DNA from: Scolanthus callimorphus
Taxonomy: Eukaryota > Cnidaria > Anthozoa > Actiniaria > Edwardsiidae
Direction of reading: 5' to 3'
DNA: 64,000 bases
Assembly: GCA_033964015.1 (NCBI GenBank)
Contig: CM066912.1
Location: 22,493,073-22,557,072 of the forward strand
Part shown: positions 7,027-57,400 of the stretch, one piece after another
How the letters are laid out: every line of letters starts with the position of its first letter
How positions within the stretch are numbered: position 1 is the first letter of the stretch
Program-made: the position numbers and the translations under genes
Notes under the pieces: model-generated
The model's input: the letters and a program-made list of their open reading frames with translations, nothing else
The model's database searches: none
Told to the model about the DNA's origin: nothing

Positions 7027-10000
7027 GTAAGACCAGGCATTAGCCTTTCAGATGAGACACACATGATCGTAACTATTGACTGTTAATAAGAGTTGAATGG
7101 TTATAAGGTCGCTCTAGCTTCAATAGTGCCAACAGTAGACCAATCCCATCTTTGCTGATTAATCCATGGGCAGTTTTCCCAGTGGGATTCAAAATATTTG
7201 CATTTGAAGGAAGGCCTTGCTGAAACTTACTTTAATTTATGGCAATCATTAGCCCCTACCGCAGGAAACACAACAAGTTTACCTGCCAATTGAACAGAAA
7301 GTATTTTTCATTGCTGAAAACAAGTACACCTTTTGCTATTCATTACGAGGAAATATGCATTCATTTGAACTAATAGGTGGACAATAACACACAAATACAT
7401 TCATTTCCTCCAAGCAACACTCATTAGCGTGAAATGCTGACTCAGTAAGGATATTTGCATTTTTGTAAACATTCATTTGTGTTATTAAGCATTCATTTGC
7501 GCCTTTATAAATTCAAGTGCGAAATATAAATTTTTGACAGCATATTAATCACATTCAACAACAAGAAAGGAATAGTCATTTGCTTGATTAAGCAGCATTC
7601 ATTTGATGAATGTAACTTTTAATAACATTTTTCAATACAAATCAATTAGTCAATAGCATTTTTTAACAGTCTTTACAATCTCAGTGATAAACATTAGCGC
7701 TCTTGTACAGTCAATAACGCCTTTTTAAACATTCATTCACAAAAATATGTTTTCAATTGAGAGTTACAGTTGTCAGTGAGAAAAAGGCAAAAATATGTTT
7801 GGGTCGTTAGCCTCGATTTCCTGGCCATCGAGGCAGCATGGCAAATACATAAGTTTGCATAAAGCGGTACACTGTGCGCTCTTTGCCGGGGTAATGGTTC
7901 CTATGCAGCGCTGCTTTGCCTCTAACAGCACTGGGTGTGAAAAACTCCTACTGGGATCCCGCGACATCTAGCCTCTGCTCTGTCGGACATCAAAGTTTGA
8001 ATCTCAGGTCTTGAAATATCACCTTTTAAAGCTGCCTTAAGTGCGCTAATCGCCTGTTCTACTATGTTGAGAAAAGGACTATAGGCCGCAGCATTTCCAA
8101 CTCTGTGTTGACGGCTGGGACAGTGGGGTGCGATGTGCTGGCGCTCCATCGTAGATGAATATGACCTCCTTGTGGGATCTAGGTTGGGCCTTGTCTCAGC
8201 AAGGACACGTCAAATCGCTCGCCATTCATTCCACCAATGAATGCCGAATAGTGTACTAGACCGTTCACAGGGGTTACTGCCAAGGCAACCGTGATGTTTC
8301 GACCACGCTGGCCACACACCTGTCGATAGGCTCTTTCTCTCAGGCACGCCCTCCTGTGGTTTCTGCCGGTCCAGATGTTGAACTCGCACTTGTCTACAAA
8401 TACACAATGCCGAAGCACCGCATGATCCATGAACCAGTTCGCGTACTACTGTCTCCTAACCAAACATCAGGCCCTGTTCCTGTCTGCTGGTAGTCGCCTA
8501 AACAAGTTTAACCCTATACAACATAACCCTCTAGGGTTCTCGCGATGGTACGGTCATGAATCTCTGGTTTTGCTGGCAGCCTTCGTCTGAGCTCTGTGTT
8601 GATCTGGTTTAGGGTTAGCACACAGTTCTCGTTTATGATCTGCTCGAGGCACTGCCACCATATCGTCATCAACACGCACATTGATGCGTCCGCCGCGTGG
8701 TCTTTCTTGGATTCTCCCTTCTCTGAAGTAACGTGCTACGACTCCTCTCGCAGTAGATGGTTTACTCCTAGCGAATCGCCACCATAACATAATCTTCTTG
8801 TCATCTTCAAATGCGCTGACAATCCTTTGGCGGTGTTCCAGGGGAATCCTGATTCTTCGCGGTGGTATTGTTGAAGCTGTACAGTACAGTATACAAACAA
8901 ATTGACTGAGAAAATTAACAGAATTCGATGTATTTTATGCTAGTTTTGTTTTGAAAAAAAGCTGCATAACCATATTTAACATCTTTTAAACGACCAAACA
9001 TAATTTTGCGCTAATCTCACTGATTATAATCTCAATTGAAAACATATTTTTGTGAAATGAATGTTAAAAAGGCGTCATTGACTGTAAAAGAGCTCTAATG
9101 TTTATCAATAAGACTGCAAAGACTGTTAAAAAATGCTATTGATACTTTTGATTTGTGTTGAAAATTGTTATTAAAAGTTATGTTCATTTAAACGAAAGTT
9201 CAATCGTGCAATTGGCTATTCCTTTCTTTTTAATGAATGTAAAGACATTTTGCTGTTGAAAGTTTATTTTTCGCATTTAAATTTATAAAGGTGCAAATGA
9301 ATGCTTAATAACGCAAATGAATGTTTACAACAATGCAAATATCCTTATTGAGCTAGCATTTAACGCTAATGAGTGTTGCTCAGAGACAAATGAATGTATT
9401 TTTGTGTTATTGTCCGCTTTTAGTTCAAATGAATGAATATGACAAAGCACGATTTAGTCAATTGAGCATGTCTAGCGACTATTTTCCCTCGCGCTGCAAA
9501 CTTCGAATGAATGTAAAGACATTTTGCTGTTGAAAGTTATTTTTCGCATTTAAAGTTATAAAGGGCAAATGAATGCTTAATAACGCAAAGAATGTTTACA
9601 ACAATGCAAATATCCTTATTGAGCTAGCATTTCACGCTAATGAGTGTTGCTCAGAGACAAATGAATGTATTTTTGTGTTATTGTCCGCCTTTTAGTTCAA
9701 ATGAATGAATATGACAAAGCACGATTTAGTCAATGAGCATGTCTAGCGACTATTTTCCCTCGCGCTGCAAACTTCGCATCAGAAAAAACTTCTTTAAACG
9801 CATTCCCTAGGTCTCAAGGATTATTTTGATATAACTTTCGTCACGATCCGCTATTAATTTGCGTTAATTATTATATATATATTCAATTATATCACTTTTT
9901 ATGTAAATGATAGTTTACACACGGCTTTTATGAAAACCAGCTATGCTGATGAAACTACCGTGTCTAAATAAAACATCTATCTATCTATCTATCTAGAGTT

Positions 10001-19000: not shown

Positions 19001-22000
19001 TTCTTTGCATCATAATACCATTTATCGTGGACTATTAATTTGATTGTCAGGCTGTATTAGCGGGTAAAGACATGGAGATCGAGGAATACAAGGCTACGAT
19101 GGCCGAGTTAAAACAGCGCATCACAGGACTTGAAATGGACACAGATAGCGCATCAATGGCGATGTTACAACAGGTGACTTCCCCTTTTTCCCGTTTATTT
19201 ATGTGTCACGAACATATACTTTGGACACAAACGAGCACACGCTTTAAATGGTCCAGTTTCGAATGCTCCGATCTACCGCTGAATAGGCATCAAAGGCGCA
19301 TAAATACAGTGGGAGCCTCGATTTGAACCCGAAAGTTGCGAATACCAACAAGTCCAAAAAGTTTTGTCTATTGTCTCCATTCAAGCTTCATCAGTTTCTC
19401 GTCGGTACTCACAAATTTTTCTACTTCAAACTGAGGCTCCCACTCTATTTATGCGCCGTCGATGCCTATTCACCGGTAGAGCAGATAATTCAAAACTGGA
19501 CTATTGTACTATCTTGCCCACGTGCGAAATTGAAGATTTCGTGATGCGCGCAGCAATGCACTTCAAAGGCGGATAGTGTGGTGACGCTACATGCACTGCT
19601 TAAAATACTTGCGAGTCGTTACTATTCCATCGCCGATGAGTTTAATATGTAGTGTAAGGAGATACCGGGATCGATGCCCGGATTCTCCACCAAATGGATA
19701 GTTGTTAAAAAACGTCTGTTAAAGAACGTCTTGCGTGACATTTCATTTTCTGTTCCATAAAATTCTATGCTAATGAGGTGCCGAAAGTGTTGAAGTCGAT
19801 TTCTTTCAAAATTTAGCTACCCTATCAAGTTTTCGTTAGAAATCTTACCTTTCTGTTGGCTTTTAATGAACTGGCAATTGTACTTTTAAAGTTTCTAGTA
19901 GTATTTTAGAACCTCAACAGAATCATTGTCACGGACAGACGTCCTTTTAAAAAATAAATCCAGACCTCTGGAATTCTGGGGAGGATTATCCTAGTGTACC
20001 CTGGAATTCCAGGTTGGATACTCTACTACAGTGGCAGAGGCCATCCAAAATTAAGAATTCCAGGATGGAAAAAAAAATTCCAGAGTACGTGGTGAAGAAG
20101 GAATCCACTGGAATTCCAGGGTTTGTAGCTGGCAGAGAGGGTGTGGATTTCTGTTGCGACTACCCGATGAAAGTTACTTCTCAACTTTAATTTGCTGCCT
20201 TACACAACTGAGAACACAATTAACACATTGATATGGACCGTACTAAATGTACTATTTATTAATGTATATTATTTTAACATACATAACATGTGGCCTCTCT
20301 GATCCTATCAGGCCTTGTCGGAAAAAGATGAACAGATACAGAATCTCAAGTCTGAACTAGAAAAGGTACGTTGCTATTATACTAAAACAATTAGCTGCCG
20401 CAGGCTCCGACCTTATCGGCACATTGTCGATAACCACGCCGCCTTCGCCAACTAATTGTTAAGTATTATGTTGTCGATTATTTACAGGCATCCATTGAGA
20501 TGCAGGGTGTCGTCGCACAAGTGGATGAAGTCAAAGCACAGGCTGACAAAGGTAAAATCATTGTTTGTGATTGGAGTCATGAATGAGCAACAATGATAGT
20601 GATGAGCATGGTTAGTGTAAGAATGATGATATGAGGTTCGTACGCGTCCTTGAAATCCTGGATTTTCATTTCCTTCCTGGAAGGCCTAGAATTTAAGAAA
20701 AATCCTGGAAAAATTGTCAACTCAAATGGTTGAATGATGAGTCATTTCGGGAATCTGATTTTGGGCTACAAATTATGACATCCTCCAGACTTATCGTTTT
20801 TTAGGGGGGGGGGGGGGGATTTCCACAAATGAAAACTCCTGAAAAAAAAAGACTTCATGGAAAATTATGGATTTTGACACTCAGAAAGCGTACGAATCCT
20901 GTGATATGCTAGTGATGTTTATAATGTTCATGTCAATGAGATGCTGATGAGGACGATTATTTTGATGATAATGTTGATGTAAATGATGTGGTAGGTGGTA
21001 ATGGATGATGTAGATGATAATAATAGCGAAGTTGATGATTGGGCCATGAATAACAAACGATGATGGCGATGAGCATGGTAGTATAATAATGATGATGTGT
21101 TAACTGTGGGTTTATGATGATCTTGTTGATAATGATACTGATGACATGATAAAGATGATGTTAATACTGGTGAGGTAGATGATATTAATGATGATGTTGA
21201 TAATGATAGTAACGTCGATGATCGGTGGCCTCTCGCTCCAATGATTTTGCATTTTCTTGTACTTAGTCTGTTTAGTGCAAAATAACTTAAATTGCTTTTA
21301 CAATGACAGTTTGTCCCGACCGAACCAGCGAGTCGCCTAATTTTATAATTGTTATTCCTCCATCAGAAAAAAATATCATCTATTAGAGAAGAGTTACCTT
21401 ATTTTAGCTACTCCTTTCTTCCTTCCCACTCTAGCTTGACAATTAAAATAGTGATTCTGGCGTTTCCTTGCTCGTTCCCTTTCACGCCTTTCCTTTCGTA
21501 ACTTGGCCTCGACTTCAATAGGTGTCAGAATGGCGCACAAAGGTACCCCAGCATAGTTGGGGTTAATCTTGGTAGGGCTTTCTTCACCGTCAAATATCTT
21601 CCTTGAGCGCTGCAGTTCCGATTTCTACTTCGTCCTCGAACTTATGCAGCGCTTCTTGTCTTTTTTCTGTTTCTTTTCGACTTGGGCTGGCCTTTCTCGA
21701 TGCAGGACCATTCCTTGAAACCATCATATCGTAATCTCGGTCAATTTTATGCTCTGGTCCATTAGGCCATATAAATTGTGAGTCTTCATTTCATACCTTG
21801 TCATACCGGTTGAGTGTTTCTGTGCAGGGAGCCATCTATGTGGTCTTCTACCCGTCCCCCTAGACTTTGTGCGTCCCTGGGCCCGCCAAAGTGGAAAGCA
21901 GTATCTTGACTATTCTTCATGTCCTCGACTATACTTCTATCACTTCGAGGAACTGGACGTCTTCTGATAAGCCTTATCAATAAGCCTTTCCTTGTAATCC

Positions 22001-25000: not shown

Positions 25001-28000
25001 ATATTGTCATAAACTCGATACGAATAATCCACAGCTTGGTTCACCGTTACATGTTTCAACTAAGTTATATGTTTCTGATTACGCTAAATACATAAAATTG
25101 ATAAAATACTAAAATTGATTATAAACAAATGTAAAAATATATGAATATATTCGGTATTCTTCCAAAACATGGCTAAGCCTTCAAGGCATTATGAATAATT
25201 AACTAATGTTTAACGTTAATGTTTATTCCCTATGAATCGAGCGAGGAATACCACCATCATTAGACACGTACGAATTGCGGGAGAAAATCGTTGTAAACGA
25301 CTTCAGGTTTTTTTTTTTTGGGAAGTTCACCTAGCTCCGGGCAATTTTAAAATAACAAATCGAATTAACACGAATTAGTATGATTACTATGTACATTGCA
25401 ACCACATTGCAAAATGTCACGGCTTTTCAGCAAATATTAGAACATATGATCTAAGTAAACAGCTTACAGTGCTTGATGTTAATTTTTGAAATTAATATTA
25501 ATCAAATGGCTAGTAAATGGCCAGGATTCACAACCGGTAGAGGTTTTTTTTTTAAGTCACGGACGCGTAAATTACTCAGTATGGAACTACCGAAATCATT
25601 AACCGTCCCAAACTCGCCACGAACGATCGGTTGGTGTTTTATTGTGCAGTCGCAAAAAAAATCCCCCCCGCCCCTGTTGAGGACCCGTCACAGCTACAGA
25701 CCCTGGATTTGTTTTAATTTGAACAACCCACCTCCAGTGATTCCAGTGATTTTCTCATTACCGACCCTGGAATTTCGTATTTTAAGGGTGCCCACCCTGG
25801 AATTCCAAGCTCTACTTTGACCACCCACCCTGGAATTCCGAGCTCCATTTTGACCACCCACCCTGGAAATCAAGAGGTCCTCAACAGGGGGTGCAATTTT
25901 TTTTTGGCGACTGCCCATTTCGATCGACCCGCTTTTGCCCTCTCGGTTACTCATGAGACCATGAGACCACCTACACATACAGTGTTCAGAACTTAGAACA
26001 AGCTGAATTCATGTTGTTCCCTTTTTCTTTCTCGTTCCCTAATGCGCCTTGCATGTCGTATCTTGGCCTCGATTTCAATAGGTGTCAAGATAGTGCACAT
26101 GGGGACGCCACTATCGCTCGGGTCAATCTTGGCAGGGCTTTCTTCCCTGTCAAAGACCCTCCTTGAAAACTCCAGCTCCAGATTTATGTCCCTCATTGTT
26201 ATGCAGTTCTTGGCTACTTTGTTGTACTTTGTAACTTGGTTTGGCCATTCGCGGCGTAGGATCATGTCTGGAAAATATCACCTTGGTGTCATGTCCATCC
26301 AACTGCATGCTCTGTACCACTGGGAGTGCAGGATTTGGGCATCCATCTCTTTCCTCTGCATTCCTTCGTTATTTAGTTTGCTACGAAGGTAAACATTCCT
26401 GGCTTCTTCTATGCATCTTTGTTGATTTTTCTGCGCCCGTCTGACCGCTGAGGTAGAAGGCAGCATTCTGCAAGTCCTCCATTGGCTTGCACGCTTGAGA
26501 TATGCCACTTCGAATACTTTGAGACTTCCCTTGTATTGCTACCTTCAAGAAATGCGCAAGGGAAAACCTTTTTTTTTTTTGGTTTCCACAGTTTGAGCTG
26601 TTCTTGCTGTTTTTAGTTTCTTGTGAGGTTTTTTTTTCCAGCTATTTCTTTCGTTTTTATATACTCAAAAGACGTCATTGCCTGTAAAGAGGTCCAAATA
26701 AATGTATCGTTTCCCAACTGCACAGGAGTTTTGCCCAATAGCGCATCGACTGTTTAGATGACGAAAGGCTGAGTCTGTTTGGTCAATGTAGCGAATGTGG
26801 AGGCGTTTTTTAACATGCCAGAACGCGTTCGTAATGCGTCAACCACGCGTCATCCTACGTCAAGCTTTCAGGACGTGTTGGTAGTGCGTAAAAGCGTGCG
26901 TCTGCCTACGTCAACGCTAGCAACGGTTTTCTCATGCACTTCAGCAGAGCGAATGTCAGATGACTGCGGAAAGTAAACGAGACTTACTTTGTACTTACTC
27001 CTAAGGTTTTAATCAAAAATTGGGTGTTTACTTTGTTTTCGGTTTTACCACAGGCATATGTAAAACACTATTAAAACAAAATTCTAACTTGTTATTTAGA
27101 ACGAGACCATTATACGTCATCCTGTTTCAAGCCACCAGGTCGTGGCGTTAGAGCGTCAAAACTGCGTCATTCGTTTTCCTGTTTTTTTTTTTATATTGTT
27201 GTTTTTGTACCGTGCGTCATAATGCAATAATAGTTCAATATCCCTCCTACTATCTGATTAGCATTAGATATGGATAGAACCCGTGACGAGCAAGCCCGAA
27301 AGGGGGACCTAATGAGTTAGATACAAAAAGAAAATATGCCAAACCTACACGAGATATTTGGAAACAATTGAATTTGAAGAAAAGTCAAAGTCATCACGCA
27401 AGGAGGAGGAGGAGGAGCGCTATTCTGTAAGGAAGAGAATAGCCTTCCTCCTCCTCACAGAATGACCCTCCTCCTCACAGAATAGCTATCCTCCCCCTCA
27501 CAGAATGACCCTCCTCCTCACAGAATAGCCCTCCTCCTCACAGAATGACCCTCCTCCTCACAGATGACCCTCCTCCTCACAGAATGACCCTCCTCCTCAC
27601 AGAATGACCCTCCTCCTCGCAGATTGACCCTCCTCCTTACAGAATTGCCCTCCTCCTCGCAGAATGACCCTCCTCCTCACAGAATGACCCTCCTCCTCAC
27701 AGAATGACCCTCCACCACACAGAATGACCCTCCTCCTCACAGAATAGCTTTCCTCCTCCTCTTCCTCCTCTCACAGAATAGCCCCTCCTCCTCCCTCAGC
27801 CAAAATTAGTATTCCTCACCAAAAAAAGGGCTAAAATAGTGTGTGACTTCATTCTCACCATCCTCACCGGAAGTGAACTGCTGCTCACCGGCCACCCTTA
27901 AAAAAATAGAGTAATTCGGTGGGTCCTATACTACTGATGTAGAAGGGCAGAAAGACGCCGTGTTGATGCCGATACTGGGATGTTCGTAACAACCTGAACA

Positions 28001-31000
28001 TACCCCCTCCCTCCACCCCGGAATTCAAGGTTTCTATAGGACCACCCGCCCTAGAATTGGAGAAGTCATCAAATTGGGAATGGGCTTTTTAAGACTACTA
28101 TTAATAATAATTCCAGCCCAACGAGCACAAATAAAAAGTAAAGAAAAGTATTGAAACAGAAAAAGTAAAGAAAAGTATTGAATACAGTTAAGAAATAAAA
28201 CGATTTTTCTGTGCCTTCATAGAGTTTTGAAAACCGAGGCGTTTGTTTGGGAGAATTCGAGAGCAGATCATGAAGCACGAGACGAAGTCGAGTACTTCAT
28301 GTTCTGACTCGAGAATTCTCCCAAACAAAAGCCAAGGTTTTCAAAATTCTATGAAGGCACAGGAACAGTGTTTTATTTCTTTTATAAAATAACTTCTAAG
28401 ATCCGATATTTTCAAGCAATTTGCCGCGTTGTTGCGTCATTTCTATGACCTTCATAGAGTTTTGAAACAGCGCTCGACAAATCAGAGCGCGCGAACTATC
28501 TATTATTTTATAACAATAACTACAACATAGATTATACAGGATAATGGTTCACCTAATAAGGTCGCTTTTTCACGCCTAGCATGCACTACCATATTCCAAA
28601 GTACTTTTGCTTTAATGACTTGGACATATGTTTATCTTATTTTCGGTCGTCGTGTTAATTTGTAGGAGTTCCCTCCGCTTACCAGCAGAAGAAGATCCTG
28701 GAACTCGGATCCACTCTGAAACGAGAACAACTGATTGCAGGGCAAGAGAAGGAGAGACTGATCAGGGTAAATTTATTGAATGTTTTTTGCATTGACGTGG
28801 ATTGGAGTATTGTTATTGTAACCTCGTTTTTTATGCATACTTTGTAATCACTCCTATAGGTTTTATTCAGTACAGTGGTTATGCATTGCTTTAGCTTGCA
28901 TTGGAGTGAAATGGCGTATCGTTTAGCTTGCATTCGAGTGAAGTGGCGTAACTTGTTTATCCATGGTAGTTTATCAGTCACATTTTACTATGGTGTTTGT
29001 TGTCGTCGTTGTTTAATGATATGATACAAGCAGTATTGACTTTGCTCCTTACTTAAATTGTTTTGTTTATTCCAGGCAGAGGATGCTGCCAGACAAAGGA
29101 TAAAGATCTCAGTGAACTAATGGCTAGAATGGTCCAATATGAAAAGGTAGACCATAAATTGACCAATTGTATTTGGAATGATTTCGAGTTTCACGTCACT
29201 CTCTGAGCAAGAGTGGCGCCGCGCTATTGTGCTTTCGTCTCGCTTGTGAGAGTTTGGTTTTAGCTTTTCCCTTGTGCTGCGCATTTTTCCAAGAGCGGCG
29301 CAAGCCTAAGTAAAAGGATATTTCATGATTGCTTGGAGATACGAACTTCAACACAATAAGTTACAAGTTGTAACCAAGGTCATGGAAATACCAAATCGTC
29401 ATTTCGTGTTTTCCAAATCTAAGAAATGAGCATGTAGCACAGGCAAGGATGTTGACTTCACACGTGAAGAGATCAGATCCTCACGATATCAGGTTTAATA
29501 TGATAAATGTGAAATGTTGAACCGTTGGTATTGAAAATACCCTCGACGGATTCGATGTTGGCCTAGGGCGATAGCCAAATCACCGTACTTGACGTATTGA
29601 CGTGAATGGGCTGTTCCATTTAAGATCCGTTACTCTCCTATCGAGGAACCTTGAATTTCCATAGGTGTATTTGTCCCTGGAATATCCGCAGGGAAATATC
29701 CTGGAATTTCCACAGAACCTTTCTTTTAACCTGGAATTGTCACAGGGCATTCATTTGCAAGTTTGGAATCTCCACAGGGGACACAAGAATGGGGAATCTC
29801 CACAGGGATTATACAGATGCCTGGAATTACCACAGGGTAGAGCATTTTCCAAAAATTCGGAGTTCCTCTGGGGTGCGGCTATTTTTGTGGAACAGCCCAA
29901 TATGGGCCACTCATAGAGCTCTTCTTTTGTTTTAAGGGCGAATATGGTTTGAGCGAAGCCGTGCAAGAGATCAAAGATCACAAAGCCCAGTTACAGATAC
30001 GTGACCAGTAAGTGAGCTCCTTCGCAGTATCTCATTGCAATGGTAGCGCGGATTTCACATGAATGTCCAAAGTAAATCAGGCCGTTTTCTGTGCGTTTAT
30101 ATAGGTGGGCGCATCGTGACGTCATAGCCTGTCACGAAATCTTCAACTTTTGATACAGGCGTCCAAGTTAAAATCTATCCATACCACGGAAAAGATCACA
30201 TTGACATTAGTCAGAAAACCAATTTTTGAGCAGTAAAAGTTGAAGACCGGCCACGCTACGTCAAAAATAAAACGGTTTATAAAAAACATAAATATAATTC
30301 TAATATCTTTAATTAATAAGCTACCTAAAATCTAAAGTTTGCCCCCCCCCCCCCCCCCCCCCCCATAAAAACGTCTATACAAACCTCTGTAAAATACGGC
30401 TTGTTTACGTTTGTTTGCAAGGCTGAAACCGATCGGTCTCAAACTTGGCAGTTTTACTAATTTCAGCACGCTCTTTCCACTGCTTGTGGCAAATTTTAGC
30501 TAGCTAAGTCGTTGATAAAATTTTCTAATTTATAATTAGACCGAAAATGCGCCCCCCTATTGGTTGATGTTTTGCCAGGCAATCCGCAAGTCGTACTTAC
30601 TTGCGCCCTGATTGGTGTGTTGTTGAATGGATTACGTTCGTGATTGGCTTAGTGTATTTACGTGTCATTTAGTCACTCATCTGAAATCCGCTTTTAAAGA
30701 GAACGTCTTCCGGTGTCTTGGGATTCTGCCATTGTCGTTATGGGAAAGAAACCAAGAAATTGAACCGATGGGGTCTGCAACTCATTAGTGGCTGGCCTTT
30801 TTCCAGAGTGAATCATTCTGATTCGCTATATTTAGCTGTCATCCTTGGCGCCTGTAGTATCTGATAAGTCCGTCTCGGGCATAATCACAGTATCGCTGTT
30901 ATTCAATCATTAACACTTATTGGATGAGGCTGAGCATGATAGTGAGATTTGTCAACGCCGAGATGTGTGTTATCTGCCGAAGCGAGCTGAGGCGGATAAC

Positions 31001-34000
31001 ACTAACTCGAGGCGTTGACAAATCTCACTATCATGCGAAAACCGAATTCAATAATTGTTTTATTATTCAGCAACCAGGATTCTTACCTAGCTAAGTGAAG
31101 TCGACGATGAGGCCTTGCAAGGCGAAGCGGTTTTTTCAACTTCAGCTTACGTCCATTAGTATTTCCCTCTTCGTATTCAATTCAAATAGCCATTGTTGAT
31201 GTTTAGATATCCTGAGCAATGATCTCTCGGCAAAAGAATAGCAGATTCAACGAGAATATTGGCAAAATTGGCTTTCGCTTCCGAAATGAAAACCAACATG
31301 GCGGCCAAACCTATTGGCTTGCGTTATGACGTCATTAGAGTGCATCAATCGTAATGTCTGGAGTTTGACGTCACGACTGCGTGCCAACATATGCTTTCGC
31401 TGTGTACTCTTAGCAAATCAGCATCGAGATAGGGCATGCTTGAATAGTAATGTTGGTTATTCTTCAAAATTATTTTAAAAGCCGACGTTTTTGGTCATAG
31501 AAACTATGGCGCAGTTAGACATTTCATTTTTGGTCATTTCCGCTCTCTCATCTTGACTTTTATACTGCTCCATTACATCATGAAAATTGTTGAAATGATT
31601 TTATTTTATTTTATTTTTAAGAAACATCGAGTCTTTGACAGCAACTGTCAACAAGCTAAGTCTGGCTGTAAACGATCTTGAGATGGAGAACGAAGAGTTG
31701 CGGGAACGGCTAGGGATGGCCCGAGGGATCGACTCGACATCGAGGATATTAAAAGAAGAAGAAAATCAAGTCGGAGCAGTCTGCCGCACTCAACAGAGTC
31801 CTCGTAAAAGAGGTAGGTGCAACCCAGTTTGAATTTATTTGGAATTATCGACAGTCGTCAATTACAACAATTACAATTGTTGATAATTGTAAGGGTTATC
31901 GTATGCGATCGAAAGAACCTTAGTGTGCGTGTCAATAAAAGAGATGTAATGAGAAAACATATGATTCTCTCATATAACCAGCAGCAAAGCTGAGCTGAGC
32001 TTGTATTTAGTTGCAGCTTGTTTACTTCGTTTGTTTTGTTTTGATCATTGTCATTGTTCAAGCGTATATATTTTCCAATCTTTCTAATGATTCGTTCGAA
32101 AAACATTTGCAAAAGTCGATGCAGAATCTATATCCATCCGTCCTCTTTTCAAACGATAACGTTTGATCTCTCTAGTGTTCTAGAATCTATGCAAAGTCGC
32201 ACTTGTCTGTATGGGTTTAGAACAAGGATCACTCTTTTGGCTGTCTTCTTGATACTTATCATCTTGAAACGCGAATAGAAGACATTGATAGTTTAGTAAG
32301 ACAATTATTACGCTATGAAAAACGTCGATTTTCCTTCATATTTTCAGATCGAACGACTGGAAGAAGAACGTGTCAATCTAAAGAAGCAGTTAAGAAAGCA
32401 GGCAATGCACCGCGGAGAAAGGCAAGATAAAACGTTATTGCTATATCGCAGTAAGACTTTTCTCGTGTTTTGTTTACGTAAGTTAACGTAGTTTTAGTGT
32501 GAATGGGGTATTAGTTTGGTTTGGGTTTAGTTTTGAAACCTGTGCTATCAGTTACAAAGATGACACTCATCCGCTGAGGACTGGGAATTCAAGAATTTGC
32601 CATCAGAGTAGTTTTCCCAAAGAATACATACCGATGTTTGTTTGTTTGTCCCTGCTCCTCCTACTTTATTAGACCAGCACAAACTGACCGCTTCAGAACT
32701 TTTTGTAACCTTATTTAAGGTAATCATTGGAATTATTGTAACCTGTCCTCCGTCCTGGCGTGTTATATATAATATATTATTATTATTCAGCACATCGATG
32801 CACTGCCCAAATATGGTCATTGAGACGCCAATAGCTGTCTTCTTTACATGACATATATCCTGCGATATCCGTCTCTGAGGGAAATATGATGTGTTGAGCT
32901 CGTGATTTCATACGCAATTTTTTTTTTCTGGGATTTTTTTCTGCTATCGATATGCTGAATAATAAACCATTATCCTGCTCGATTTTTGCAGAATATCGTC
33001 TGATTAGTATCAAACGATATTCTGCGCAATCTCGCAGGATAATGGTTAATTATTATACAACTGTGACGTCATTTACCATATAAGGTCAAAATTGAGTGCA
33101 GATATGGAGCCGTATTACACGGCAAAAGCCGTATTACACTGTTGAAAGCCGTATTACACTGTAGGAAACGACAGAACCCAAAAATGGCGAGATTTCTACC
33201 CTAAGGTCAGGTAAAGTCAGATAGGCTTGATTCTTTGCATAGAGTATCCTTCTACAATAAGAAACAAATAGAAATGAGTATTTTTTTTCTAATTGATCCG
33301 TCTTTAGGATATGAGGAGTTACACTTTGGTTGCTGCAGCACTTTTTGACATTTTTTGTTAGAATTGTACAAATTTTGCCATAAAACGATGCAGTAACCAA
33401 AGTTTAGCAGCTGATATCTTAAAGACGGATCAATTAGAAACAAAATACTCATTTCTATTTGTTTTGTTTCTTATTGTATAAGGATACTCTATGCAAAGAA
33501 TCAAGCCTATCTGACTTTACCTGACCTTAGGGTAGAAATCTTGCCATTTTTGGGTTCTGTCGTACGAAACCGGTTACGAACCGGTTTTGCGCGCGCACTT
33601 GAATGGCTTCCCGATCGTGTGCTAGAGAAATCACATACGTTTTCTATTGAATCTTGAAAAGAAAATGAATATTTTTGCTCGTCGTATAATAAATAACTCA
33701 TGAGATGTTTTTTCATGTAATACTGGCGGTCATTTTACTCATTGCTCGCATTTTTCCTCATTTCCGCATCTCGTACAATATCCGCCCGTATTATATGAGA
33801 AAACATAGAATAAGATATATATATTCTCGATGTTGACATCAATGTATTTATTATTTATTTACTATGAACTGACCTATTCATGTAATTCAGATATTAACTG
33901 CGATAGGATAATAAACGAACACTGTTATTATTATTATTATTTCTCTAGTGTACAGGGACTTTCAAAGAGACGTTATCGACAAAACAAAATGTCCATATTA

Positions 34001-40000: not shown

Positions 40001-43000
40001 AAATTTCCAGCTAGTGAAATGAATTTAAGAGGCAAACAAATTAATGTTTCAAATTTATCAAGCAATATTATGGAGCAACAATATGACAACGAGCCTATTC
40101 ATGTGGAACTTTTGAGATGAAGTGGGTATCAAACCTTGTGAAATAATATGTTAAAACCGTACCGGATTAAAATTCCTTTCAGGACAATATCTCAAGGAAA
40201 CATTGATAAAAATTGTGTGAGGTTTCATTTCGTTGGGAAAATGCCGAGTAAGTAATAAATTGCGGAAGAAGTTTCCACGCGCTTTAAAGTTTTTCCAGAT
40301 AACACTGATTTGCATAGCAACGCTTTGAGCAAAATTATTCATCCTACGAATTCTCGATCTTTAAACTGTCCACTGCATGGGATATTGTCATCTTTCTTCA
40401 TAATGTCTGATTGATTATAAGGCGCCATTATTTCTGGTGCAGGGAAATATAAAGGAAAAAACAAATGCTCTCTCTCCTGTTGCTATGGCTCCGTTTTAGT
40501 CCGTCTTCTAAAGTTGAATACTAATTTGTCTCTTGAATCAATTAAATTGGTGTTTGGACGTAGTGCGCAGACGCGCACTTAATCAGCTCATTAACTCGGT
40601 TCGTAACTAATGTGTCAACATTCATCTGACTCGCAAAGCGTAGCAAACAATGTCACGCAATAACAACCATATGCATTATCTTTTGTTGTTGTAGTTAGTT
40701 AGTTTGATTCCCATGATGGAATGTAGTCCGCTTCACTGATTACAGGGAAAACCACGTGAAAGCTACAACAAGTGAAAACAAAGTACAATGGCAAAAACCG
40801 GCTCGAGCAAACCGAAAGAGTAGTGAAGTTTAGCATTTTTTCTCGGTGCCTTAAATACTTCAATGAACTCGAGACTTAGAGGGTTATTTTTGGTATATAT
40901 TCAAGATTAATTTACGGAAGTATCAAAAAAAAATCATATGAGATTTTTGTCAGAGGCGAAAAGTGTAAATTTTATAACAAACGTAAGATTTATAATATAA
41001 TTTCTCAAATTTGCAGTTTGCTTGAACACATGCCAAACAAAATCGGAAGCATTCCAAGAAGTGAAATTTGGCTGGTACATTGCCTTGGGTTTGTAGATTA
41101 TTCGGGCGGCAAGGATCTTTTAATTCCGCAGATATTAGCCATTCTTTTTCAAGGAAATCTTTGCGGCATAAATAACTTTGACATTTTGGAGCCTGAAAAA
41201 GTCCGTTCGAATAACATAAAATCGGCCCAATGATGCTCTCCAAACTTGCTGTGATTAATGTTAGCTACTCAGGGATTAGTGCGAGGGGTATCATTTGAAA
41301 AGTTTAGGTCGCGCAACGCGTCTGATGGCTGCGTATTATAAACAAGGGTGTGGTTATAACGTTGCTATAGCAACTCCGATCACAACACAATGCACACTAC
41401 AACAAAGTTCAAACCCTCCAGGGTAACCATGTGAAAGTTCAGACCGGTACAGGTTTTTGTGCCTGAACAGCAGGCAAACAAAGTTTGGTGGTGGAGAGCA
41501 GAAAAAATTGTAGGCAGCCTCCTTTTAAGCGTTTTGAAACGATTAATGCCTTGCCGTGCTCACTTTTACTTTACTTGTCACGTAACTGGTCCGAAATATA
41601 AAATGTATACTGGGAAGACACTAGAACTGAGCAACTAAACTGGTGTTCTTGTTTTAACAGATCGAACAACTCCAAGAAGAAGTTAAAGCGTTAAAAGAAA
41701 TTGGTATGCACGTTGTTTTAAAATTGAGAACTGGTACTATCTGCATCTCAATATATGTGTAAGATACAAGATCCTGGAAAGCCCTGAAAATTACTTGCCA
41801 TTTCTCAAAATATGCTTATTGTCGTGGAATGTATCATCGACTTTTTTAAAGTTCAGATGCATGAATTACATCGGAAATGTACGACACTTGATTTCCAAGG
41901 TCATTTGCAGGGCAGTGAATTCTGAATCCTATAATTATGACACTGTCATAGCAAATGCTATTATGACACTGTCATAGCAAATGCTATGAATGTTTTGCTG
42001 TTGCGCTGTAGGCGAAGGAGTGATCAGACTACAGCCTCTTCAGCTACCAGAGGGTATGACCCCATCCTCGTCGGAGATCATCGCAAGTTTGAATGAGCAC
42101 CTAATACATACACTTCAGGTATTATGATAATGCTATTGGCAATGTGGGACTTTAGAGATAATTTGTTGGGTCTCTAGCGGGAGTAAAATATTTGCGCAGC
42201 AGATTGTTAACACCGAGAGTAAAAGTAAAGTACTTCAGGCGTCGCCCTCGCATTTCGAACAAATTCGTGATACACTTTTGGAATAAGAAATGATTTCCTC
42301 ATTCACAAAGCCAATACCTTTACAGGGTTTACACGGTGGAAAGTCCTTGAATTCAGGTATAATGATGATCCTTCAGGTACAATGATAATTCTATTGGCAA
42401 TGTAGGAATTTAGTTGTTAGGTCCATAGCGGGAGTAAAAGCTTTGCACATCAGATTGTTACTGCGATTTTCATAAATCTGCGAACTCTCGCTATCGATTT
42501 CCAACCGTAAAACCGCCTTCTGGCTTCCGTCAATCAAACTTCCGAGTATGATATGATTAAATGTGCGCAAATGCGGCCTTAACCACCACTGAAAAAAACT
42601 GAGAAAAAAATCAGGCATAGAATGGGATTCGAACCCACGACCTTTGCGATACCGGTGCAATGCTCTACCACCTGAGCTATCCACGCCACAGGGAAAGGTC
42701 GTATTCGGGTTAGCCCTTTATATGAAGTGACTTGTCGCTTGGCCCAAGCGAAAGTGTAAATGAATAAATGTCACGTAGTGGTGTGATAGGTATGATACGA
42801 TTATAAAATGTGCGCAAATGTGGCCGTAACCACCACTGAAAAAACCTGAGAAAAAAATCAGGCGTAGAATGGGATTCGAACCCACGACCTTTGCGATACC
42901 GGTGCATTTATTCATTTAAACTTCCGAGTCTTTTCGTCGTTACTATTTGTGCTTTTTGATTGGCCAGCGCCTTAGCAGCGCTAGAATGGCTTCCTGTCAC

Positions 43001-51498: not shown

Positions 51499-54400
51499 GG
51501 ACATACAGCAGACACTATTTCTAGCACCTTAAAATAGAGACAACTTTGGTTGATATGATGCATGTGGAAAACGTGGGTTCCGCCTGTATTTGCCGGGACG
51601 CAGATGGCACAATTTGTTACAAACAAAAGAGAAAAAAAAAACTTCAGCGCATCTTGCCTTTATTTGTACCCAGGTAACCGAATGGCACTCCAAAATGAAC
51701 GAGATTCGACTGCAAGATCTGAAATTGAATCGAACAGTCGATCGCATCAAAGAACAATGTAAATTTCTGGAGAACCTCAACAAGCAGCACGAGCGTACGA
51801 TATCCGATTACGAGGAGGAAGTCGTACAGATGACAAAACATCACGAAGAGAGACAGTTGCTATGGGAACAGAGGGAGGTGGAGCTAGAAAGGATGATTGA
51901 CAAGTAAGGGCGTGATTTTTTACTGGGTGTTTTTATCTTGGAAAACCCGGTCCGTGCGAATTTATTTTTTACGCCCACTTCATGGCACTTAGAAATTTTT
52001 AAGGCAAGTTATTGAGAAAAAAAGGAAAAAGTATTCATGGTGGTGCGAACCCTCAACCCTGTGCAAATTACCTATTCATAACCCAACATCTTACATATGA
52101 GCTACGAGAGAGTTCGCAGGTCAACATGCTCCTTTTGATTCACTCGTAGAACGAGAATATGTGAATCGTAATGAATATTTATACTAGCTAGCCGCCATCT
52201 TGAAGTGGGCGTAAAAAATAAATTCGCCCGGTCCGTGTTTTAAACGGGGTTTAATGAATGGAACCTTTCCAGTTTTGGGGAATTATTCGTAACTACCATA
52301 GTATACCGAGATACCAAATGATTGTAGGCTTCATGGACCTACAGCGGATCGCAACGTATTGCGACAATGAGTTTTTGAAATTTTGTTGGGATGAACAGTT
52401 TTCAAAGTTTGAAGTACATCAACATTTGTATTAAAACCGGCAGTCTTGTCGATAAAACCTACCTACATTGGTTATTAGGCTACTATCAAGTGATGTAAGT
52501 GATTTTGGGATAATCACATTACATATTTAGAGCTGCATTTTCGAATTCATTCAAATAGCCGTGACGCAGACCCTTTAAATTAACGTAGCTTTTACTCGAG
52601 GAATGATTCGTAACCACCATAGTATCCCGAGATAAATGCCCACCGTATTTTCTCAGGTTCGAGAAGCAGCAAGAAGAAATGATGGCAGCGGCTACTCGGT
52701 TTGAGGAGGCGACAGGATCCTTGCCTGACCCCACCCTCCCTGTAGCTAATCAGCTGGAGCTCGCGATCAGAAAGATAAAGGAGCATATCCGGGTGATAAT
52801 AAGCACACGAGAAGAAAATACAAGATTGAAAAAGGTAAGACACGTATTTTGAGTCGCACAGTTTTTGTTTTATCGTGATTCTATAAAAAAGAGTAAAAGA
52901 AAACTAGAAAGACATCATTCTCCTTACAAGCGCGTGTTCTTAAGCCTGGTGCACACTTGCGACATAACGACTTAAGAAAATTATCACGCGAACAAAATTT
53001 AGTGGTTTCAAGAAGTTGAAGTCCTCAAAAAATAACATAAGATTGTTTTGGTGAAGTAATCTAATGAAGATCCATGGAAAATATTAATTGTTTCGATTAT
53101 TTTCCCGTACTTTTTTCGTTGCAACATAACGTCCATATGTCGTTATGTCGCTAGTGTGCACCAGGCTTTAGGCAGTCATAACGATTGCCATCCGACGAAA
53201 CTTGGTGAACAGTCTTCAATGCATGGTTAATGAGCAAGTAAAGTCAAGGTTACGTCCACACAAAGGGATATTAACGTCAAGTAAATCTAGAACTTCCCCA
53301 GTGCCGTATTGTTGCCACTCTCCAACTCATTCGAAAATCGTTGAAAATCTTTAATAGAGCATCGCTGAAAATGTCCGAATGAAAATGATTGAATGATACT
53401 ATAAGATTCTTCGATAAACGACGACTCAAAACGATGCCTGGTATGTTTGAAATTCGAGAAGGTGATTGCCGTATTTTCGATGAGTTGATCGTTTGAGACC
53501 CGGTTAGTACTATTTGTCTTGATTAGCTGCATACTACGGTAATAATCGAGGTCCCTTGTTTTCTTGTTCATGTAAAAACAGAAAATGGAAGAAGCTGAAC
53601 AAGTTGTGAAACAATCAGCCGAGAAATTGACTCAGAAGGACAAGGTAGGTATTCCAATTCCTTTACCTCCCCTGCTTGCTTGCATCCCTTTTCGATAGAT
53701 TCTTCAGAAAATGTATTTTAATTCTTAAAAGCGATTGCAAAATAAATTATTGGAGCAAAATAATTTACATCATAGTGTATACTTATGTCTTACTGTTTTT
53801 GATATCTGATCTAAAACACTCATTTCTTACAAACACCAAAGATCGAAAACGAATCCTGAAACTTTATATAGACTGATTTATATAGACTGACAGCACCATG
53901 AAATAAATATTACATCACAACTTTGAAAAGATGTGACCATTATTTTTGAAAAAGAAGTGCGTCATATTGAGCAAGGTTGTAAAGGATTAAAAATGTTACC
54001 AAACCCTGACTTGTTCCTTTTCAGGTCATCAATGAGCTGCGTCTCCGTCTTCCTATGTCTGAGAGGGAAGAAATCACTGCTGCTGCCAAGAAAGCTGCCG
54101 GAGACAAGGACGACGACTATCAGCTAAAACAAGCGCTCAAGGTGGCACAGGCTACAGTATCGAGTCTGCAGGTATGGTACACTCTCCTGTGAGTGACAGG
54201 AGAACATCGGTATAGGTATGTGGTATAGTCCCACAACGGAAGAAGAGCCATCTAGTAGAGCCATTTCCCTTTACCTAAAAACTGTTCTAGAGTTTTGTTG
54301 TCTTAGTATGGCGAACACTGCACTGAGTATGTAAATGTAAATGTATGCACTTGTATACCGCGAATATCCGTATCCATACATGTTCAAATGCGGTTTACAG

Positions 54401-57400
54401 TATGTGGATCTCTGATGCCTAAGATGCGGCCTGCAATTGTATGCATACAGTTGACAATCATGAGTGGTTGTTGATATATCATTCTGTGGTGAGCACTGTG
54501 GTTGTTTAACGTCCCTCGCATAGTGGTTGATTGTAGTGGGCTAAGAGACGGGACCTCAGTTTATATTGTCTCATCCAAAAGACGTGAAACACAGGAGAAA
54601 TGACGAATCACTTCAACCCACGATGAGCACAAGGTTCGAGTCATCAGAAAAATCCCGACTGGGATTCAAACCCGGTGCACAGAGGTGAGAGGCGAGCGCT
54701 TTACACGCTGCGCCACCCGTGCTTCCCAGGATGGTCACTTCCAAGGATGGTCACTTTAACGTCTTCCTGGTTCCTTCAAGCCCTTCTGGTTCCGTGAAAC
54801 ATACGGTCTTACGTCCTTATCCGAGAAGACGCTAAGGTCTAATCATTTGCAGCTGGTAGAGCAAAGACAGCACCTCAGTTATTTAGAAAAGAGCCATATG
54901 TTTGTTTCCACGTCTGTTGGTTATATTCCACGTTTGTAACTTTACTTTTTGTTTGTATTTGCTTTTTAATGCTATTCCATCTTTAAAGAGACTGCTGGGA
55001 TGTGGTCAGGAATCGCGAAACGCAGTGTGCCGCTTTCAATACATTTAATCTGAGTTGGAAACAATTTCGCGAAAGGAATTTACTAGTATTATCCCATTTC
55101 ACAGGGTTTGTATGCGTCCTGGAAATCCTGGATTCTCATTTCCTTCCTGGAAAGTCCTGGAATGTTAAGGAAAATCCTGGAAAAATGTTTCAATGTTTCA
55201 ACTCAAATGTGGTTAAAGCAGTCAGTTTCGTGAATCTGATTTTGGGCTGCAAATTATGACTTCCTCCACACTGGAGCCATTGACTGGTGCCATTTCTGTC
55301 CAATAAAAACTCCTGGAAACGTCCTGGAAAAATAGGACTTTCTGAAAATCCTGGATTTTTGTCATTCAGAAAGCGTACGAACCCTGATTTCAGAAGATTT
55401 CCATTTCTGCCAACAGCAAATGCTTGCGCGGAAGGAAGAATCACTTGCCAAATACCAGGAGATGCTGAAAGAAGCTCGCGAAGAAGCAAAGGCACAAGCT
55501 GAGCAACACAGGGCTGAGATTCAGCTCTTGCAGGATCGGCTCCACTTAGAGTCGGATGAAGTGTTCAAAAGGACCAAACTCATGCATCAGGTAAGTGTAA
55601 TCATTATACATTGTACTTAGAGTCGGATGAGGTGTTCAAAAGGACCAAACCAAACTCATGCATCAGGTAAGTGTAATCATAATACATTGTACTTAGAGTC
55701 GGATGAGGTGTTCAAGAGGACCGAACTCATGCACCAGGTAAGTGTAATTATAATACATTGTACTTAGAGTCGGATGAGGTGTTCAAAAGGACCAAACCAA
55801 ACTCATGCATCAGGTAAGTGTAATCATAATACATTGTACTTAGAGTCGGATGAGGTGTTCAAGAGGACCGAACTCATGCACCAGGTAAGTGTAATTATAA
55901 TACATTGTACTTAGAGTCGGATGAGGTGTTCAAGAGGACCAAACTCATGCATCAGGTAAGTGTAATCATTATACATTGTACTTAGAGTCGGATGAGGTGT
56001 TCAAAAGGACCAAACCAAACTCATGCATCAGGTAAGTGTAATCATAATACATTGTACTTAGAGTCGGATGAGGTGTTCAAGAGGACCGAACTCATGCACC
56101 AGGTAAGTGTAATTATAATACATTGTACTTAGAGTCGGATGAGGTGTTCAAGAGGACCAGACTCATGCATCAGGTAAGTGTAATCATTATACATTGTACT
56201 TAGAGTCGGATGAGGTGTTCAAGAGGACCAAACTCATGCATCAGGTAAGTGTAATCATTATACATTGTACTTAGAGTCGGATGAGGTGTTCAAGAGGACC
56301 AAACTCATGCACCAGGTAAGTGTAATCATTATACATTGTACTTAGAGTCGGATGAGGTGTTCAAAAGGACCAAACCAAACTCATGCATCAGGTAAGTGTA
56401 ATCATTATACATTGTGCTAACTATCTCGATTCTGATTGGCTAAGAGCGCCTTTTCTTTCGGAATCAATGTAAGTGTAATTATTATACTTTGTACCCAGAT
56501 GAGAATCAACCACCATCACCATCCCTAAGATCTTGTTTCTCCAATTTTCGATGAAGCATGATTTATTTACGATGTGTTTTTCGATGGTGGTTACTTAATA
56601 ATTGTTGTTTTGCCGTTTCTGTTGTTCCAGGAGTCTGTAAGCTCATCTCGTCAAGTTCCAACCGAGAGAGAGGTAAATCAATTAGAGTTAAAATATTGTC
56701 TTATTTCATATTGATCCATTTCATTTTACTGCTGATTCTGGCATCTGTGTGGAGTCTTGCAGTCTGATTTTTTCTAGATTCGCTACTTTTTCGAGGCATG
56801 TCGCGGCAGAAGCACATCCACTGCGAAACTGAGCATGGACGAGCTGATTATCTCACATGGTTTCCTTGACAACGCCAAAACACAATTGCCTTGTACGCGT
56901 TTATGTTACTGTAATTTCAGTCTCGACAAACACTGAAAGTTCTTAATGTTTCCTTCTAAATCAGTCCCACGAATTTATTGCATAAACTCATGAATTTTAC
57001 TCGTGAATATGCGAAACATAGAAACGAGTATTTTATCGTGGCGGGGCCCGATGTCACGAACTCAGTGACTTTAAAGGAGCTCTCGCACGCTTGCTGGCCA
57101 CCTCTCTGACAAGAAAATAGCTGAAATCGCAATCCAATTCCATCCGATCGATAGCAGGTCAAAACAACCTAGAATTGCATTTGTCTAAGACTTAAAAGGT
57201 TTTTCTATTAATGTGGAGGATTATTTTGATTACTACGGGCAATTGTACATATGTTTTTATGGCTACAATTTTGCTTATTTTATGTAGATGTCCACGGTGG
57301 ACCAATATTAAACGTGCGAGTGCCCCTTTAAGGTTGAAAGTTCTTCTACAGATAAAAGGTTCCATTTGATCTTCAGTGCGGGCCGTTGTTTGGCCACCAT

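Follow-up and report, generated by a model that had tools for sequence, protein, structure and literature searches.

The 64,000-nt window of the Scolanthus callimorphus assembly analyzed here (C2:22493073-22557072) contains, within the ciliary gene CEP290, a tandem array of 12 units (55544-56415, +), each carrying the splice donor CAG/GTAAGT (slashes mark borders), in which the first unit is a genuine coding exon end with its own donor. It is best read as a minisatellite that differs in length between two gene copies and originated in a tandem duplication spanning the exon-intron border; a local assembly glitch is unlikely, and a generic satellite was rejected within the scope of the assembly search.

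Tandem Repeats Finder called a period of 71 with 12.0 copies at 55544-56415, as well as periods of 147 and 218. Unit splitting resolved eight units of 71 bp and four of 76 bp (in order: 71, 76, 71, 76, 71, 71, 76, 71, 71, 71, 71 and 76 bp), with a 5-bp insertion as the sole indel among them. Minisatellites are described as head-to-tail units of about 15-100 bp (PMC3618361), a range that includes these 12 units of 71-76 bp and the 22 units of 70-76 bp found at a second locus (see below). Each unit is composed of 47 nt of the CEP290 exon end and 24 nt of the following intron, and the array edges are sharp on both the left (CTCC/ACTTAG) and the right (CATTGT/GCTAAC). Unit 1 (55544-55614, +) comprises the authentic exon end (55544-55590), the authentic donor and the first 24 intron nt, and units 2 to 12 repeat it with few changes. 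The first-pass annotation had described a CEP290 exon end and its donor amplified downstream, and this was borne out, with twelve units including the authentic one; its split into about 43 exonic and about 28 intronic bases proved to be a rotation of the unit, since the sharp boundaries give 47 + 24. Unit 12 is followed by a 53-bp stretch (56416-56468, +), of which 26 bp resemble a dispersed repeat at 31407-31432 (-). Next to it lies a diverged, intron-only half copy (GTAAGTGTAATTATTATACTTTGTAC; 56469-56494, +), lacking the exonic part and absent from the earlier description. Long exact blocks of 217, 189 and 181 nt occur inside the array at offsets 365, 218 and 147, respectively, which fit block-wise growth.

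The assignment of the host gene to CEP290, already made in the first-pass annotation, was confirmed by the Pfam domain CEP209_CC5 on the stitched protein (E = 2.2e-50) and by the closest protein among the best 120 of 1774 above threshold, Nematostella CEP290 (82% over the searched region). A Nematostella-guided gene model placed exons across most of the window on the + strand. The array's exon (55417-55590, +) is 174 nt long and in phase 0 according to the gene models and the alignment to Nematostella CEP290, and its final 47 nt make up the exonic portion of unit 1. The next exon (56631-56672, +; 42 nt, 14 codons, acceptor TTGTTCCAG/GAG) was skipped by the guided model and present in the unguided first model, and its residues match Nematostella. 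The two exons join as MHQ/ESV. In all 13 of the 22 relatives in which the junction motif was found, the protein reads straight across the site with nothing inserted; the other nine gave no match to the motif. A 254-residue piece had no matches among solved structures, and an exon-end pattern had none in a prokaryotic genome collection, a result that is uninformative for an animal.

Donor 1 (55588-55596, +) is followed by eleven others with GT starts at 55667, 55738, 55814, 55885, 55956, 56032, 56103, 56174, 56245, 56316 and 56392 (+), and CAG/GTAAGTGTAAT is the donor in 12/12 units of the window. All are CAG/GTAAGT sites of consensus strength, as expected from the earlier claim of twelve near-identical strong donors. 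With a weight matrix trained on the sites of CEP290 itself, leaving out the array's exon, donor 1 scored 12.0 bits and ranked first among the 43 modelled GT donors of the gene (median 8.4). Outside the array, CAGGTAAGT was not found on either strand of the window (chance expectation of 0.26 per strand, from base composition alone), nor, both arrays excepted, in the 154 kb surrounding the window or the 170 kb surrounding the second locus. A 30-base donor-centred pattern, allowing up to 3 mismatches, gave 12 matches, all within the array, and none in 100 shuffles. Fourteen non-modelled GT sites outside the array score at or above the median modelled donor, indicating that strong decoys per se are ordinary. 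As acceptors, the AGs inside the array all scored at most 1.4 bits, compared with 1.7 at the lowest and a median of 8.6 among the 44 modelled acceptors; the array thus supplies donors but no credible acceptors.

Use of donor 1 would yield the 174-nt exon and leave an intron of 1040 nt, and the exon would grow to 250, 321 and so on up to 975 nt with donor 12, where 239 nt of intron would be left. Among the 46 modelled exons the median length is 104 nt and the longest has 231 nt, which the exons from donors 2-12 would all exceed. Introns shorter than 250 nt account for 6 of the 45 modelled; this length set includes four exons placed manually, and any exon overlooked would inflate the intron lengths. 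When donor 1 is passed over, an in-frame TAG is reached at 55618-55620 (+). The first-pass annotation had anticipated this stop after 10 codons; nine sense codons precede it, and the TAG is the tenth. Its claim that any downstream donor truncates the protein is true for plain read-through, but a micro-exon route through the acceptor ACTTAGAG/TCG would keep the frame in 7/11 copies, with acceptors that score below each of the 44 modelled. Among 34 protein-collection matches to an exon-plus-read-through query, no transcript of this animal was recognised; the top match was 57% identical across 93% of the query, and the best identities, up to 78%, came from matches spanning at most one third of it. 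Short reads carry a risk at such an array, as aligners are reported to produce spurious splice junctions between repeats (PMC10632439).

A search of the animal's own 597-Mb assembly with a 357-bp query from the array gave nine matches at two places, the window and C2:36177357-36178940 (such repeat counts are lower bounds). The latter is the same exon position in a second CEP290 copy, located on the scaffold that carries the window, thus the check for the same array at unrelated loci, proposed in the first-pass annotation, returned only a homologous site. The second array has 22 units of 70-76 bp, and its locus also has the 53-bp tail and the half copy, whose GTAAGTG reads GTAGTG there. For its last donor, number 22, the computed exon is 1684 nt and the intron 243 nt. 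The order of unit types is a b c b c d b c e d f g in the window and h b i j h b i j h b i j k d d h b i j k d l in the second array; types b and d are identical between both. The exon-bearing type h (unit 1 of the second array) recurs at units 5, 9 and 16, indicating that the coding unit joins the turnover of the array. The array's exon differs between the two copies at four sites, all synonymous. The simplest reading of the unit orders and shared types is that diversification of the array preceded the separation of the copies, each of which later amplified blocks of its own.

In both arrays taken together, 11/71 columns vary and 0/9 donor columns do (P = 0.20), and CAGGTAAGT is intact in 34/34 units. 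No signal of selection on the decoy donors was obtained, either with the window array alone (P = 0.37) or with both arrays, and the exonic part of the window array showed no significant synonymous excess (3 of 5 variants, P = 0.22).

The second CEP290 copy lies 13.6 Mb away in the same orientation, and C2:36120345-36217101 and beyond corresponds to window positions -307 to 82780. Blocks of at least 400 bp align at 81-99% identity and reach at least window position 82780. A 3-kb right-flank query matched two collinear pieces at C2:36265267-36269137 with 99% identity, implying a homologous span of about 99 kb. The homology starts at window -307, 232 bp to the right of a 100-N scaffold gap (-639 to -540), and to the left of -307 no collinear homology was found, only scattered short repeat matches. 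One CEP290 exon searched against the assembly hit exactly two places, the window copy and the second copy. The copies diverge by 2.6% substitutions in the flanking intron, with a dS of 2.8%. These values are close to the heterozygosity of 2.5% given for another edwardsiid, Edwardsia elegans (PMC12053456), and, like the start of homology beside the gap, they favour misplaced haplotypes. However, each copy has apparent coding lesions of its own, which would be unexpected in both of two alleles of a needed gene if none of them were an assembly error, and no gap interrupts the second copy in the 170 kb examined. We lean modestly towards alleles rather than paralogs; the difference of 12 versus 22 units may be either allelic or paralogous.

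The lesions in the window copy are 1-nt deletions relative to the second copy in the exons at 29076-29146 and 31622-31816, which put CEP290 out of frame if they are genuine and not errors of the assembly. In conserved exons of the second copy, CGA is replaced by TGA at two codons and 2 nt are missing, near C2:36169224-36169390, 36172338-36172475 and 36185906. Apparent lesions in both copies make normal protein output uncertain and count against the explanation favoured below. The copies show a dN/dS ratio of 0.19 when four gapped exons are omitted. Comparison with Nematostella placed 10 of the 18 codon differences that change an amino acid on the second copy and 3 on the window copy; 5 are undecided.

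Several other repeats were observed in and around these loci. A dispersed repeat at 55105-55386, 74% similar to 20635-20901, stops 30 bp short of the acceptor for the exon that runs into the array. A 271-bp unit is present in two tandem copies with 97% matches (window 9232-9776). Another CEP290 intron contains an array at 27447-27745 in which every 20-bp unit (CCTCCTCCTCACAGAATGAC) looks like a 3' splice site; as acceptors these units mostly score 5.8-8.5 bits, one of them 1.7, compared with the modelled median of 8.6. This array is shorter in the second copy, with the motif present 6 times versus 12 in the window. An element of ~1.1 kb with inverted ends of ~300 bp was located at C2:22590419-22591540, with matches of ~90-94% at dozens of places in the assembly (40 of 3135 candidates scored). 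A tRNA match lies inside a CEP290 intron (42614-42686, -), at the Rfam gathering score (55 bits), and the repeated frame around it hints that it is possibly a tRNA-derived repeat. It is the sole Rfam match of the window at gathering scores, with none in the donor array; the folding energy of that array (z = -0.79) was equalled or exceeded by 4/20 shuffles, and a structured RNA was therefore rejected.

We consider it probable, with considerable room for doubt, that the array arose by duplication, grew by unequal exchange and is tolerated because donor 1 is used by exon definition. A tandem duplication with ends 47 nt inside the CEP290 exon and 24 nt inside the next intron would have created a second donor. 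Unequal exchange would then have expanded it into a minisatellite, to 12 units in the window and 22 at the second locus, the authentic exon end staying in place as unit 1. The exon would be recognised across itself, and donor 1, the nearest to the upstream acceptor, would yield the normal exon. The decoys would be removed together with the intron, and their occasional use would produce an early stop and a message that is presumably short-lived. The origin by duplication is supported by the exon end forming unit 1 with sharp boundaries, and the explanation as a whole by the same array standing at the same place in the second copy, with its own block order and the shared types b and d.

Choice of donor 1 by exon definition appears the most likely outcome, since the junction is conserved, the alternative exons exceed any modelled exon and the plain alternatives truncate the protein. 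The dependence of the locus on the first donor, stated in the first-pass annotation, should likewise be taken as a prediction. In a human survey of near-equal donors, the upstream one was preferred with long introns (exon definition) and the downstream one with short introns (intron definition), the preference switching near an intron length of 200-250 nt; with long introns, good inclusion was reported only for exons below ~500 nt (PMC9225289). The exon-definition configuration, a short exon with flanking introns longer than ~250 nt, is present here, with an upstream intron of 1245 nt (54172-55416) and a donor-1 intron of 1040 nt around the 174-nt exon, thus the exon-centric rule points to donor 1. 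Against this, the 239-nt intron of donor 12 lies at the switch, and the intron-centric rule points to donor 12. The classical two-donor experiments, in which the downstream donor wins (as told in PMC9225289), also count against donor 1, as does the same survey with strength unmatched, where the majority of events go to the downstream donor. The preference for the intron-proximal site among comparable donors has been called unexplained (PMC6002489). According to a footprint cited there, U1 covers 23 exonic and 12 intronic nt, so that a 71-nt spacing could seat U1 on every unit.

A different role for the decoys would be dosage control, in which they are steadily used, the TAG-containing products are degraded and the array length sets the amount of full message. 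In keeping with it, the donors are intact in all units of the two arrays, the arrays differ in length, each plain read-through product contains the stop, and for MIR137HG an association between VNTR length and the use of alternative donors is described (PMC6692358). However, intact donors are expected by chance in units this young, given the P value of 0.20 above, and we regard this explanation as unlikely. The same low probability is attached to the broader proposal that the exon end is unit 1 of a concertedly evolving donor VNTR in which the first of 12-22 donors is picked and decoy loss acts as a length-coded splicing rheostat, which must be taken as speculative.

Equally improbable, in our judgement, is that the array is tolerated because its gene copy is decaying or no longer needed. 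The deletions in the exons at 29076 and 31622 of the window copy would agree with this, as would the two TGA codons and the 2-nt deletion in the second copy, together with the concentration of amino-acid-changing differences there (10/18). Nevertheless, the low dN/dS between copies speaks against decay, the one-exon search showed no third, clean copy, and the single-base deletions may be assembly errors.

Micro-exons or recursive splicing, with the downstream CAG/GTAAGT or TTAGAG/TCG sites acting as acceptors and the array removed or included stepwise, seem very unlikely. By sequence, CAG/GTAAGT is an acceptor end joined to a donor, the consensus of a recursive splice site, and the frame-keeping ACTTAGAG/TCG acceptors would also suit this route. 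A recursive (zero-length exon) site is a functional acceptor with a pyrimidine tract directly before a donor. As acceptors, the CAG/GT sites of the array score only -0.5 to -1.6 bits, compared with the modelled minimum of 1.7, and all in-array acceptors fall below the 44 modelled; in addition, splicing between neighbouring units would leave an intron of ~30 nt.

An array made by repeated or mis-joined reads is slightly less probable still. The assembly is imperfect here, as the contig starts at a 100-N gap and the copies may be misplaced haplotypes, but the units differ among themselves in a patterned way, neither array contains an N, and the two were placed separately with different length and order and a common 53-bp tail and half copy. 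An artefact is unlikely given this second, differently organised array. A generic satellite that happens to sit in CEP290 would account for the tandem unit and its satellite-like length, but it was rejected as the least probable explanation, since unit 1 is conserved CEP290 coding sequence and the assembly search found two places at the same CEP290 exon (repeat counts being lower bounds).

Border-crossing tandem duplications, and repeated units with splice signals that lead to introns, are already known (PMC4974935, PMC3629103). In the model of intron gain by tandem genomic duplication (Rogers; the potato RdRp gene, PMC4974935; ATP2A1 as told there), the duplication likewise crosses or carries splice signals, and in potato RdRp, as described there, it crosses the intron-exon border. 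The feature that this model looks for, a duplicated segment carrying splice signals, is present in CEP290 as CAG/GTAAGT in every unit. The CEP290 array differs from the model as described in being on the donor side, with many copies, no credible acceptor and no new intron evident. The reported intron gain from a 24-nt tandem repeat also involves multi-copy units with proto splice sites in a gene, and there too unit differences argue against assembly error. In that case, as described, the units were exonic and AGGC sites gave rise to new introns, whereas in CEP290 a consensus donor with intron sequence is repeated inside an existing intron.

Competition of two or more equal donors for one acceptor has been described in the constructs of Reed and Maniatis (via PMC9225289), in exon 1 of oestrogen receptor alpha (PMC6002489) and in intron 4 of DOK7 (PMC5585400). 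Compared with those descriptions, the CEP290 case is natural, with 12 or 22 identical donors spaced by 71-76 nt, and the proximity rules predict opposite ends of the array. In MIR137HG a length-variable array also lies in a transcript and its length is associated with donor choice, but the splice sites are apparently outside the repeat (PMC6692358), whereas each CEP290 unit is a donor and unit 1 is part of a coding exon. Among the open-licence papers listed, no description was found of an authentic donor present as a many-copy tandem array in which the exon end is unit 1.

The 5-bp insertion, present in 8/34 units of both arrays together, would shift the frame if moved into position 1, and a coding exon end is thus caught in minisatellite turnover. 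At the CEP290 array two rules of donor choice clash, as proximity across the exon points to donor 1 and proximity across the intron to the last donor. As a naturally occurring series of identical donors, present at two lengths within a single assembly, the locus would allow an in vivo test of the rules outside vertebrates, with site strength held constant.
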